Of a stretch of DNA of 64,000 nt, positions 53,939-57,753 are shown one piece after another. Below the pieces are notes generated by a model, which had not been told where the DNA came from, made no database searches, and was given only the letters and a program-made list of their open reading frames with translations. Position numbers and translations under genes: made by a program. The DNA comes from Actinomarinicola tropica (GTDB lineage Bacteria > Actinomycetota > Acidimicrobiia > Acidimicrobiales > SKKL01). Numbering within the stretch: the stretch's first letter is position 1; each line of letters begins with the position of its first letter. The stretch lies in contig NZ_CP045851.1 in NCBI RefSeq assembly GCF_009650215.1, positions 1,341,189-1,405,188 on the forward strand, written 5' to 3'.

Positions 53939-54724
53939 ATGGTGGACACCTCGGACGTCGACATCGATCAGCTGTGGGCCGACTTCAAGACGTCGTTGGA
54001 CCGCACCGCACGCGACCGCCTGATCCTGCACTACTCACCGCTGGTGAAGTTCGTCGCCGGTCGCATGGCCGTCGGCCTCCCGCAGAACGTCGAGCAGAGC
54101 GACCTGGTGAGCTACGGGGTGTTCGGGCTGATCGACGCCATCGAGAAGTTCGAGCCCGAGCGGGGCTTCAAGTTCGAGACGTACGCGATCTCCCGCATCA
54201 AGGGCGCCATCCTCGACGAGCTCCGCTCGATCGACTGGGTGCCGCGCTCGGTGCGGGCCAAGGCGCGCGCCGTGGAGAACGCCTACACGAAGCTCGAGTC
54301 GGTCCTGCACCGCACACCGACCGACGCCGAGCTGTCGGCCGAGCTCGACCTCACCGAGGAGCAGCTCCAGATCACCCTCGGGCAGATCTCCTTCGTGGGG
54401 CTCGCGGCCCTGGACGAGACCCTCTCGCTCGGTGCCGCAGGCGAACGTGAGACCTTCACGCTCGGCGACACGATCGCCGACCAGGGGGCCGGTCCGGTCG
54501 ACGTCTACGAGGTCGAGGAGATGCGCCACCTCCTCGCCGACGCGATCAACCGCATGCCCGAGCGGGAGAAGATCGTCCTCACGCTCTACTACTACGAGGG
54601 CCTGACCCTCGCGGAGATCGGCCAGGTCCTCTCGGTCACCGAGAGCCGGATCTGCCAGATCCACACCAAGGCGGTGCTCCAGCTGCGGTCGCGCATCTCC
54701 GCGGCCCAGCGCGAGCTGGCCTGA
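53939..54724 (+). CDS. whiG: WhiG/FliA-type RNA polymerase sigma factor
   Basis: A 261-residue sigma-28-class factor. Region 2 contains LILHYSPLVKFVAGRMA and DLVSYGVFGLIDAIEKFEPERGFKFETYAISRIKGAILDELR. Region 3 starts SIDWVPRSVRAKARAVE, and region 4 has the helix-turn-helix LTLAEIGQVLSVTESRICQIH. The gene occupies the whiG position of Streptomyces (upstream of the M23 gene and rpsB). ATG 53939 lies 5 bases after the xerC stop. Its targets here are unknown; one candidate promoter lies at 11673-11700. Confidence 0.93.
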   Translation: MVDTSDVDIDQLWADFKTSLDRTARDRLILHYSPLVKFVAGRMAVGLPQNVEQSDLVSYGVFGLIDAIEKFEPERGFKFETYAISRIKGAILDELRSIDWVPRSVRAKARAVENAYTKLESVLHRTPTDAELSAELDLTEEQLQITLGQISFVGLAALDETLSLGAAGERETFTLGDTIADQGAGPVDVYEVEEMRHLLADAINRMPEREKIVLTLYYYEGLTLAEIGQVLSVTESRICQIHTKAVLQLRSRISAAQRELA

Positions 54725-54729
54725 CCTCT

Positions 54730-54745
54730 GGCCGGCTCGCCGGCC
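54730..54745 (+). terminator. GC-rich hairpin after whiG
   Basis: GGCCGG (54730-54735) and CCGGCC (54740-54745) flank CTCG, beginning 5 bases after the whiG stop. There is no T-tract. A second weaker hairpin (GGGCG/CGCCC) follows in the leader of the next gene. Confidence 0.45.
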
Positions 54746-54811
54746 GACACATCGGGCGCCTGACGCCCCGCACCTTCCCCCTCGAGAGCCCCTGACTCCG
54801 GGAGTGGTGCC

Positions 54812-56659
54812 ATGCGTCGCGCCGTCGACCGCCCCTTCGTCCTCGTCGTCGTCCTGGCGCTCGTCGCCGTCGCGCTCCCCGTGCTCCCCGCGGGGGCCGA
54901 CACCGACGGACCCGTCGGCTACGTCCACCCGGTCGACGCGCCGGTCCTCGACCCCTTCCGGGAGCCGGCGTCGCCCTACGGGCCGGGCAACCGGGGCCTG
55001 GAGTACGACACACCGGCCGGTGTCGACGTCGGCGCTGCGGCGCCGGGTGTCGTCACCTTCGCCGGCGAGGTGGCCGGGGCGCGCCACGTCACCGTCGGCC
55101 ACCCGGACGGCCGGTTGACGAGCTACTCCTTCCTCGCCGACGTGCAGGTGCGTCGCGGCGACGTCGTCGAGCGGGGCGAGGTCGTCGGCACCACCGGCGG
55201 TCCGCTGCACGTCAGCGTCCGGGAGAGCGGCCGGTACGTCGATCCGGCGCTCCTGTTCGGCGTCGAGGTGACGAGCGTGCAGCTGGTCCCCGAGAACCCG
55301 TTCGGGAGCCAGCTGTGGGAGCAGGCGGCACGGGAGGTCATGGCCCTGGCCGCGCTGACCTTCGCCGAGGGGGGAGGGTGGGGGCTCGGCGACATCGGCG
55401 GCGCGATCTGGGGTGCCGCGAGCGACGTGGCCGGGGCGCTGCGGGAGGTCGCCCCCGACCTGCTCCGCCTGGCCTGGGAGCTGGCGCCGTTCGCCGTGGC
55501 GGCGCTCGGGAGCCCGCTCATGGCCGTGCTGGTGTTCGAGCTCGCCCTCCCCGTCCTCCAGGGTCGGGTCCCGCCGCTCCTGCGCATCCTCGACGAGACC
55601 GGACCGGTCGGCACGCTGCTGCGCATCGGCGAACGGACGATCGCGTGGGTCGTCCACCGCACCGACTGCACACCGGGGGACGTCGAGCCACCCCCGCCCA
55701 CCGGGCGTCGCGTCGCGTTGCTCGTGGGCGGGCTCAGCTCGACCTCCTCCTCGGCCCGGATCGGCGACGTTCCGGTCGACCGGCTCGGCTACGCCCCCGA
55801 GGACGTGCTCGGCTTCAGCTACGAGGGCGGCCGCACCCCGGACGCGTTCGGGGCGAGCGCCGCCCCGGTGGCCGAGGACCTGCGCGCCGTCCCGGTCACC
55901 GAGTACGGCACCGACGCCTCGACCACCGACCTCCGGCGGCGCGCCGAGCTGCTCGCCGACCTCCTCGAGGAGCTCGAGGCCTCGGCCCCGGGGGTCGAGA
56001 TCGACCTCTTCGCCCACTCCCAGGGCGGCGTGGTCGCCCACCTCGCGCTGCAGGAGCTCGCAGGTCGCCCGGGGGGCACGGACGTGATCGCCTCGCTCGG
56101 CCTGGTCGCCACGATGGGCACGCCGCACCACGGCTCGGACCTCGCGGCGATGGCGGTCGCGGCGTCCGAGACGGGGGAGGGGGCGCTGCTCCTCCAGGTG
56201 GCCGAGCGCATGTCGGGGCGCCCGCTCGACCCCGACACCTCGACCAACGTCGCCGACCTGGCCCGGGACTCCGACGTCGTGCTCGACGCGCTCGCCGACG
56301 GCCCACCGGACGGTCCGACCTACCTGGCGCTGGCCGCTCGGGGCGACCCGGTCGTGCTCGCGGCGCGGACGCGAGCACCGGGGGCGACCCACGTGACCCT
56401 GCCGATCGACGGCCTGACGGCGCACGAGCAGCTGCCGGGCCACGCCAGCACGGCGCGGGAGATCGCGCTGGCTCGCGCCGGGATGTCGCCGACGTGCGAG
56501 TCGTTCGGCGACTTCGTCACCGACACCTTCGTCACCGAGGTCACGACGACCCTCACGCTGATGATCTCCGACCTGGTCGCCGGACTGACCCAGATGTCGG
56601 TCGTGCCGGAGCCCCTGGGCGACCTCGCCGGCGATCTCGTCCTCGACGGGGGGTGGTGA
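54812..56659 (+). CDS. Exported fusion: degenerate LytM (M23) domain plus alpha/beta hydrolase
   Basis: A 615-residue exported protein: signal peptide (about 1-29), a LytM/M23-like domain (about 35-150), a middle region with a hydrophobic segment (about 225-248), and an alpha/beta hydrolase domain (about 290-560). The M23 zinc ligands are not kept: the HxGxD position reads NRGLEYD and the usual HLHFE reads LHVSVRE. The hydrolase has a nucleophile elbow AHSQGGVVAHL (Ser near 404) and MGTPHHGSDLA, as in triacylglycerol lipase/PGAP1-like proteins. M23 genes are normal between whiG and rpsB; the hydrolase fusion is not. Confidence 0.85.
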   Translation: MRRAVDRPFVLVVVLALVAVALPVLPAGADTDGPVGYVHPVDAPVLDPFREPASPYGPGNRGLEYDTPAGVDVGAAAPGVVTFAGEVAGARHVTVGHPDGRLTSYSFLADVQVRRGDVVERGEVVGTTGGPLHVSVRESGRYVDPALLFGVEVTSVQLVPENPFGSQLWEQAAREVMALAALTFAEGGGWGLGDIGGAIWGAASDVAGALREVAPDLLRLAWELAPFAVAALGSPLMAVLVFELALPVLQGRVPPLLRILDETGPVGTLLRIGERTIAWVVHRTDCTPGDVEPPPPTGRRVALLVGGLSSTSSSARIGDVPVDRLGYAPEDVLGFSYEGGRTPDAFGASAAPVAEDLRAVPVTEYGTDASTTDLRRRAELLADLLEELEASAPGVEIDLFAHSQGGVVAHLALQELAGRPGGTDVIASLGLVATMGTPHHGSDLAAMAVAASETGEGALLLQVAERMSGRPLDPDTSTNVADLARDSDVVLDALADGPPDGPTYLALAARGDPVVLAARTRAPGATHVTLPIDGLTAHEQLPGHASTAREIALARAGMSPTCESFGDFVTDTFVTEVTTTLTLMISDLVAGLTQMSVVPEPLGDLAGDLVLDGGW

Positions 56660-56689
56660 GCCGCTGACGTGGGGGTGGCGCGGCACCGC

Positions 56690-56695
56690 TACACT
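56690..56695 (+). promoter_or_regulatory. Candidate -10 element TACACT of rpsB
   Basis: TACACT lies 30 bases after the upstream stop and gives a long leader of about 125 bases before rpsB, as is common for S2 operons. Confidence 0.45.
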
Positions 56696-56759
56696 CCTCC
56701 GTCGGCCCGGTCCCGGGTCGCGCGACGGCATCTGCCGCCGCGCCGGAACACACCACTCA

Positions 56760-56799
56760 GCCGCACCGACCACGGTCGCCCCACGGGCGCTGGTGCGGC
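56760..56799 (+). other. Stem-loop in the rpsB leader (candidate S2 autoregulatory structure)
   Basis: GCCGCACC (56760-56767) pairs with GGTGCGGC (56792-56799), and CGCCC (56777-56781) with GGGCG (56785-56789) inside. It ends 28 bases before ATG 56827. A role in S2 feedback is inferred from position only. Confidence 0.4.
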
Positions 56800-56826
56800 G
56801 ACGTCGAACCGATGGAAGGAGACGTG

Positions 56827-57753
56827 ATGGCTGCCGTCGTCACCATGAAGCAGCTGCTCGAGGCCGGGGTCCACTTCGGCCACCAGACCCGGCGCTGGAA
56901 CCCGAAGATGAAGCGCTTCATCTTCGGTGAGCGCAACGGCATCTACATCATCGACCTGCAGCAGACGCTCGGTCGGATCGAGACGGCCTACACCTTCGTC
57001 CGCGACCTCGTCGCCGACGGCGGCACCGTGCTCTTCGTCGGCACGAAGAAGCAGGCCCAGGGGCCGGTGCAGTCCTACGCCGAGAAGTGCGGCATGCCCT
57101 ACATCAACGAGCGGTGGCTCGGCGGCATGCTCACCAACTTCGAGACGATGGCCAAGCGCGTCGCCAAGATGAAGGAGTACCAGCGCATGCGGGACTCCGG
57201 TGAGTTCGAGGCGATGCCGAAGAAGGAAGCCCTCCTCATCTCCCGCGAGCTCGAGAAGCTCGAGCGCAACCTCGGCGGCATCCGCAACATGGAGAAGCTG
57301 CCCGACGCCGTCTTCGTGCTCGACACGAAGAAGGAGCACATCGCGGTGACCGAGGCCAACAAGCTCGGCATCCCGATCATCGCCGTGGTCGACACGAACT
57401 GCGACCCCGACATCATCCAGTACGTCATCCCCGGCAACGACGACGCGATCCGCTCCGGCGACCTCATGTGCCGCGTGATCTCCGACGCCGTCGACGAGGG
57501 CCGCTTCATCCGCTCCCGCACCGCCGGCGCCGACGCCGGTCCCCAGCGCAGCCTGCGCGAGGAGGACGAGATCGCCGCCCAGCAGGCGGAGGCCCGCCGC
57601 CAGGCGGCCCTCGCCGCGGCCGAGCGCGAGGCGCGCATCGCCGCGGCGAAGAGCGTCACCGCCGAGGCCCAGCCCGAGGCCGCCGAGCCCGCTGCCGAGA
57701 CCCAGACCGAGGCCCCCGCCGCCGACGCGGCCGAGACCACCCAGGAGTCGTGA
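56827..57753 (+). CDS. rpsB: Ribosomal protein uS2
   Basis: A 308-residue uS2. [61 protein letters not shown] and [21 protein letters not shown] are the conserved blocks. After about residue 235 it has an Ala/Glu-rich low-complexity tail, longer than in E. coli but common in actinobacteria. ATG 56827 has AAGGAG upstream; ATG 56812 is an alternative. It is the first gene of rpsB-tsf-pyrH-frr. Confidence 0.97.

Follow-up and report, generated by a model that had tools for sequence, protein, structure and literature searches.

A degenerate LytM domain fused to a lipase-type alpha/beta hydrolase between whiG and rpsB in Actinomarinicola tropica

The fused gene and its two domains

The stretch of DNA analysed here, referred to as the window, covers 64,000 nucleotides of the Actinomarinicola tropica genome. 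At positions 54812..56659 of its forward strand lies a gene for a probably secreted protein of 615 amino acids, in which a LytM pseudo-peptidase is fused to an alpha/beta hydrolase, as judged from the open reading frame (start ATG at 54812, stop at 56657-56659), Pfam matches and an AlphaFold2 model. The gene is found between a WhiG-type sigma factor gene upstream (53939..54724; NCBIfam NF004935, 353 bits against a cut-off of 343) and rpsB, encoding 30S ribosomal protein S2, downstream (56812..57753; TIGR01011, 349 bits and over its cut-off, with Pfam in agreement); these neighbours and all features given below within the gene are on the forward strand. This is the position, with the coordinates and frame, that the first-pass annotation had described from the letters alone. 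Chance or a misread frame can be ruled out as the source of the protein because many genomes carry this protein at the corresponding locus.

The LytM/M23 domain spans residues 34-150 (54911..55261). It is matched by Peptidase_M23 (PF01551) at 49.6 bits over residues 60-145, against a cut-off of 28.7, and at 53.9 bits in a genome-wide search. Structure prediction bears out the LytM-like character proposed for this domain, with the model of residues 34-150 matching solved LytM structures at Z scores of 17.2-19.5, the best of which are Csd3 (4rnz, Z 19.5), DipM (7qrl, Z 19.0) and EnvC (4bh5, Z 18.2). Alignments place changes at two of the three zinc ligands of the HxGxD and HxH motifs: Asn60 (54989..54991) replaces the first histidine and Glu64 (55001..55003) the aspartate, with His133 (55208..55210), the second histidine of HxH, kept as the sole zinc ligand. 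Both M23 catalytic histidines are gone. That of YxHL is replaced by Phe107 (55130..55132) in alignments to DipM and 2hsi, although an hmmalign alignment of the genome's own M23 protein is gapped here and does not put its histidine on Phe107. Pro131 (55202..55204) stands at the first histidine of HxH according to hmmalign, at which the phmmer alignment to 2hsi has a gap instead. The earlier statement that the metal ligands are lost can therefore be kept for positions 60 and 64, and both catalytic histidines have gone too, but it does not extend to His133. Judged by its sequence, the window protein is not an active M23 peptidase: the PF01551 match and the LytM fold are present, and the zinc and catalytic residues are absent from the positions just described. 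Loss of the M23 site is not genome-wide, because the genome has two other M23 matches and the one that was checked keeps the canonical residues (HKGVD, THL and HLH).

The second domain, a lipase-type alpha/beta hydrolase, covers residues 298-567 (55703..56512). Its model is matched by Lip_vut1 (6nkc, Z 19.1), the Bacillus subtilis lipase (1isp, Z 18.1) and a Streptomyces lipase (5h6b, Z 17.9), and the top-ranked hydrolase-fold chains in the structure search include MAJ1 (7v3k, 'Putative lipase') and a marine Streptomyces lipase (5h6g). Abhydrolase_8 (PF06259) matches residues 351-419 at 23.4 bits against 20.5, covering only positions 64-133 of the 178 in that profile. The predicted nucleophile is Ser403 (56018..56020), set in an AHSQGG elbow between the strand 396-402 and the helix 404-418 of the model; Asp512 (56345..56347) would be the catalytic acid and His538 (56423..56425) the catalytic histidine. 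In an alignment of 66 fused proteins, comprising the window protein and 65 relatives with 28-54% identity to it, this triad is complete in 66/66, so that the lipase-like hydrolase with AHSQGG foreseen by the first-pass annotation is confirmed at the level of fold and residues. Also present in 66/66 are Cys286 (55667..55669) and Cys562 (56495..56497), and the two probably form a disulfide. Helices at residues 565-612 (56504..56647) close the protein. The AlphaFold2 model of the fusion, built from those 66 sequences, has a mean predicted local distance difference test score of 83.7; values within the two domains mostly exceed 90, and the helical linker is partly ill-defined; it is a guide to the fold of each domain, and the contacts between domains and the geometry of the sites lie outside its scope.

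Residues 1-29 (54812..54898) resemble a signal peptide, with a pair of arginines, a hydrophobic core and AGA before Asp30, the cleavage site being judged by eye. Hydropathy reaches its maximum of 2.91 at residues 9-27, and the protein would be exported by this segment. Between the two domains, residues 151-285 (55262..55666) form a helical linker, predicted in part with low confidence and holding a hydrophobic stretch at residues 224-242. Across the 615-residue protein, Pfam finds no match to LysM or to another accessory N-terminal domain, and nothing but the signal-peptide-like segment lies ahead of LytM. With 79 Asp/Glu and 38 Lys/Arg, the protein has a strongly acidic composition, a possible sign of a saline habitat.

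Profile matches further upstream of whiG identify a ComM-like Mg-chelatase gene, dprA and a XerC/D-type recombinase gene. The gap between the fused gene and rpsB is about 150 bases in the window and holds neither of the two gene types, SpoIID and PQQ_2, found in this gap in relatives. No promoter or terminator came to light when 54600-56900 was scanned for them.

Distribution of the fusion and state of the peptidase site

Several samples were used for the family comparison. A profile match was obtained in 39/59 relative genomes, namely the window's own, two with a single weak hit each that were not fetched (G004 and G029) and 36 that were fetched. Among the fetched loci holding the LytM part, rpsB lies downstream on the same strand in 34/35; L069, whose LytM gene runs on the opposite strand, was left unscored in the neighbourhood count, and L065, which is cut before LytM and retains only the hydrolase end, is in no neighbourhood count. 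A further 79 loci, the best 79 of 257 confirmed relatives, comprise 69 fused and 10 LytM-only forms. About half of their titles begin with Acidimicrobi-, and most others name Actinomycetota, Actinobacteria or Microthrix. Since these loci were fetched with a pattern containing GNRG, they were left out of the count at site 60. Of the 69 fused loci, 65 entered the alignment above; L101 and L113 are cut at a contig end, and L104 and L112 have over-long frames. Plasmid-borne relatives gave no match, and a single-sequence scan of genome contigs gave 28 stretches that fit the pattern, none of which was confirmed.

The site survey rests on 113 distinct LytM segments, here called rows: 48 from the organism's own order (including that of the window), 20 from other orders of its class and 45 from other classes. 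The rows from outside the order are a non-random set of 60 fetched stretches, mostly high-scoring, plus 5 loci, drawn from the matching genomes, 127 of the class and 161 of the phylum; rpsB is downstream on the same strand in 32/60 of these stretches. One own-order row (L042) is cut before site 60, which leaves 47 scorable there. In the class sample, 37 own-order genomes match the LytM profile, their genomic place being unchecked, and 18 are listed without a match, a count made by eye with 2 more no-match genomes outside the listing. A single family (f23) accounts for 13 of these 18; its small genomes (1.5-2.2 Mb) may have lost the gene altogether. Care must be taken with some titles: four loci (L090, L072, L076 and L127) from metagenome-assembled genomes titled Bifidobacterium breve, Chloroflexota and Acidobacteria carry an acidimicrobial-type gene and neighbours, and either the titles appear to be wrong or the bins to be mixed.

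The same domain pair, for which a search in relatives had been suggested, is widespread. By the hydrolase profile, 25/48 own-order rows are fused, as are 11/20 from other orders of the class and 14/45 from other classes. The 23 remaining own-order rows are LytM-only and end no more than 31 residues after the LytM segment. Among the 31 other-class rows in which no hydrolase was detected, the LytM segment is followed by at most 119 residues in 26 and by at least 388 in 5, one of which is L225. Fusions outside the order are thus at least as numerous as counted, because the local hydrolase profile missed L225:5294-7234 (+), the same gene as L182, whose 647-residue product carries M23 and Abhydrolase_8 (123.7 bits). 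Four other-class loci, L253:4145-6082 (-), L258:4336-6096 (-), L259 and L260, keep His-Asp-His and HLH with about 390-430 residues behind LytM; in the two of these that were scanned, Pfam found nothing but M23. Within the survey, the triad is complete in 24/25 own-order fusions, 11/11 from other orders of the class and 13/14 from other classes, the exceptions being L047, whose frame is broken, and L199, where the alignment ends, and both cysteines are present in 24/25, 9/11 and 3/14, respectively. In the first exception, L047:5465-7166 (-), LytM and the start of the hydrolase are in one frame and the catalytic part is in another, which could be a step in domain loss or an assembly error; the locus was counted as fused and dropped from the hydrolase tree, which retained 49/50 fused rows.

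In that tree, one branch (support 100/100) sets the 24 own-order rows apart and another (97/95) does so for the 11 same-class rows, a pattern consistent with a single old fusion that was inherited and lost several times; the tree is unrooted and does not by itself separate gain from loss. A recent fusion peculiar to this genome can be ruled out, as the fusion recurs in relatives inside and outside the order, and horizontal acquisition of the hydrolase is not favoured, given that the hydrolase tree splits by taxon. The LytM tree was built from few columns, with 18/109 inner branches starred; its change counts (11 for the fused state, 6 for Asn60) were not used as evidence, and a paired test of fusion against Asn60 on this tree has only 2 supported pairs and says nothing.

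A SpoIID gene is located between the fused gene and rpsB in 7/20 own-order fused loci, compared with 0/14 scorable LytM-only loci. Pfam confirms SpoIID (78-89 bits) in 4/4 gap genes tested, these SpoIID/LytB-type genes being at L037:3778-6090, L038:3257-5350, L065:723-2465 and L052:588-2102, all on the minus strand. A further five gap genes that were tested all encode PQQ_2 beta-propellers (5/5), at L205:7071-8396, L208:6968-8344, L132:6176-7636, L228:6015-7514 and L039:6879-8426 on the plus strand. The gap between fused gene and rpsB exceeds 1.2 kb in 9/11 same-class fused loci. In A. tropica, the only SpoIID match lies elsewhere than the fusion locus, and there is one NlpC/P60 match; Amidase_3 gave 0 matches in this genome, which is 98.8% complete, with the same profile positive in 8/14 genomes as a control.

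The survey also reveals the variance of the peptidase site. At site 60, the 47 scorable own-order rows have Asn in 45, Asp in 1 and His in 1, compared with His in 63/65 rows outside the order (20/20 in other orders of the class; His 43, Asn 1 and Arg 1 among the 45 from other classes). Site 64 in the own order is Glu in 34, Asp in 12, Lys in 1 and a gap in 1 (n=48), and site 133 is His in 41/48, as it is in 66/66 aligned fusions. The full His-Asp-His zinc set is found in 0/48 own-order rows, 20/20 from other orders and 39/45 from other classes (59/65 outside the order). Site 107, the histidine of YxHL, is His in 0/113 rows, and site 131 is His in 1 own-order row (1/48), 0 from other orders and 12 from other classes; no sampled row carries the full M23 catalytic set. 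The family thus presents a graded loss of the peptidase site, with the YxHL histidine gone everywhere sampled, the zinc ligands mostly kept outside the order, and the first of them almost fixed as Asn within it. Asn also occupies site 60 (GNRGLDY) in a fusion from another class (L180 and L223, genome G218), whose closest rows in the hydrolase tree have His.

Within the order the altered domain is far from uniform in its conservation. The mean over 126 columns is 0.59, and the values reach 0.94 at Asn60, 0.85 at His133, 0.94 at His97, 0.98 at Arg137, 0.96 at Tyr142 and 0.98 at Asp144; the former catalytic position 131 varies (0.31). Taken at the level of sequence, degeneration is a conserved, order-wide state. 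It is common to the LytM-only proteins of the order, which also have Asn60 (conservation 0.96 in LytM-only rows, 0.92 in fused rows), and therefore did not arise with the fusion, which rules out fusion as its cause.

A wall-held lipase and its alternatives

With about even confidence, we read the protein as a secreted serine esterase or lipase that a non-catalytic LytM domain keeps at the cell wall. The signal peptide would export it. The LytM domain, by sequence and model, would contribute a peptidoglycan-endopeptidase fold that lacks the cleaving residues, and its remaining site would most likely dock on peptidoglycan or a wall protein; the conserved LytM residues can be read as such a binding site, predicted to have been kept, with no particular place in the groove implied. 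The linker would then position the lipase-fold hydrolase, with its Ser403-His538-Asp512 triad and probably braced by Cys286-Cys562, at the cell surface. There it would cleave acyl esters of external lipids or of the cell's own envelope, a role for which fold and triad are predicted and activity and substrate are conjectural. Retention of the triad in nearly all fusions suggests selection for an enzyme.

Several observations weigh against this reading. In it, peptidoglycan targeting by the LytM part and the nature of the substrate are both inferences. The 23/48 own-order rows that are LytM-only indicate that the LytM part is useful without a lipase, and Asn60 is equally conserved in those rows and in the fused ones. 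Simple drift does not account for position 107, where 0.88 of own-order fused rows have Phe; in the LytM-only rows this position varies. The hydrolase's Pfam match is weak and partial, both cysteines are seen in only 3/14 fusions of other classes, and the SpoIID genes next to some fusions are as suggestive of a peptidoglycan role as of a lipid one.

In the main rival reading, the LytM part would be the core of the protein, a non-catalytic regulator of wall hydrolases similar to EnvC, NlpD or DipM, and the hydrolase an optional addition that trims acyl or O-linked groups in the same place. We regard this as possible, if on balance unlikely. The hydrolase is absent from 23/48 own-order and 9/20 same-class rows and undetected in 31/45 other-class rows, Asn60 is as conserved without it as with it, a SpoIID-type gene adjoins some fusions, and DipM provides a precedent; however, Amidase_3, the partner of EnvC and NlpD, has no match in this genome, the protein has no LysM match, and a triad intact in nearly every fusion examined implies that the hydrolase is more than a relic. 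The EnvC-like regulation raised by the first-pass annotation is accordingly only partly upheld, in that the degenerate, non-catalytic LytM fold is there and the usual partner is missing, and activation of an amidase in the EnvC manner is weakened as a specific candidate. The two functions could also be coupled within one chain. It is doubtful, although conceivable, that the pseudo-peptidase controls the lipase in cis, the Asn-(Asp/Glu)-His groove of LytM sensing peptidoglycan or a metal and opening or positioning the lipase. If so, hydrolysis of surface lipids would be switched on only in the wall, and the principle of EnvC would have been moved to a lipase in a single chain.

That same trio of residues might instead mean that the LytM site is remodelled and not dead, with Asn60, Asp/Glu64 and His133 holding a metal for an altered activity or for metal-dependent binding. 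Decay would be expected to drift, and the own order has Asn in 45/47 rows at 60, an acid in 46/47 at 64 and His in 41/48 at 133; yet His is found in 0/113 rows at 107 and in 1/48 own-order rows at 131, so that known M23 catalysis is not expected, and Asn is a rare zinc ligand. We consider this proposal improbable. Hydrolysis of mycolate-like esters of the envelope, as the first-pass annotation had suggested, is less probable by far. It would suit a serine hydrolase that is probably secreted and is attached to a domain of wall type, but the suggestion finds no support in the comparisons made: the Cutinase model (PF01083) scores 11.8 bits, below its cut-off of 25.9, the nearest solved folds are ordinary lipases, and the protein's profile and sequence matches include no mycolate or mycolyltransferase family, genes for mycolate synthesis not having been searched for. 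Mycolic acids are not a known trait of the group.

Comparison with known systems

The closest parallel to the first domain is DipM of Caulobacter crescentus (7qrl), which has the same LytM fold (root-mean-square deviation of 1.8 over 116 residues, 32% identity) and in which, as in the window protein with its His133, one of the three metal ligands is left. The two differ in that DipM keeps the histidine of YAHL where the phmmer alignment puts Phe in the window protein, and DipM is not known to carry a fused hydrolase. The groove around the dead site of DipM is described as the predicted docking site for its targets, and substitutions there reduce binding (PMC10336132). The Escherichia coli amidase activators EnvC and NlpD likewise have a non-catalytic LytM fold (4bh5), but in the window protein there is no LysM match and a lipase-like domain is fused behind, and the genome has no Amidase_3 match. 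SpoIIQ of Bacillus subtilis, with 3tuf among the structure matches, is another degenerate LytM protein, and SpoIID adjoins some of the fusions described here. SpoIIQ acts in the same sporulation process as SpoIID; it is not known to carry a hydrolase.

With respect to locus, the resemblance is to the actinobacterial M23-like proteins beside rpsB, of the type of Mycobacterium tuberculosis Rv2891, which has this position. In PMC8594824, Rv2891 is listed as one of three M. tuberculosis M23 genes of unknown function. The rpsB-side proteins differ from that of the window in that 59/65 rows outside the order keep His-Asp-His, and many have no detected hydrolase. The hydrolase half, in turn, shares its alpha/beta hydrolase fold with the secreted lipases 1isp, 5h6b and 7v3k (Z 17.6-18.1), at an identity of only 17-20%. 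Those enzymes have the AHSxG elbow and the Ser-Asp-His order and are free-standing.

M23 proteins without motifs or zinc are described as degenerate folds that serve as hubs in division in a review (PMC9662197), and surface-associated lipases have been reported from Candidatus Microthrix (PMC8267870). Two loci labelled Candidatus Microthrix (L071 and L096) carry the fusion, in a set in which some titles are plainly wrong, and the fusion may be linked to those surface lipases. If the lipase is held at the surface, it would be a candidate for the surface lipase activity of lipid-consuming relatives such as Candidatus Microthrix. PMC11495043 makes no mention of M23 in its accessible part. A full-text search, which left most subscription journals uncovered, found no paper on a fusion of LytM/M23 with a lipase or on a lipase with a peptidoglycan-binding domain, and none on a degenerate LytM beside rpsB or on whiG-rpsB-M23. 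With LytM-only and fused versions at a single syntenic position, the family is well suited to the question of what a pseudo-peptidase does. Degenerate LytM domains as regulators of wall hydrolases are known, as are secreted lipases; what appears to be new, going by that search, is their pairing in one protein.

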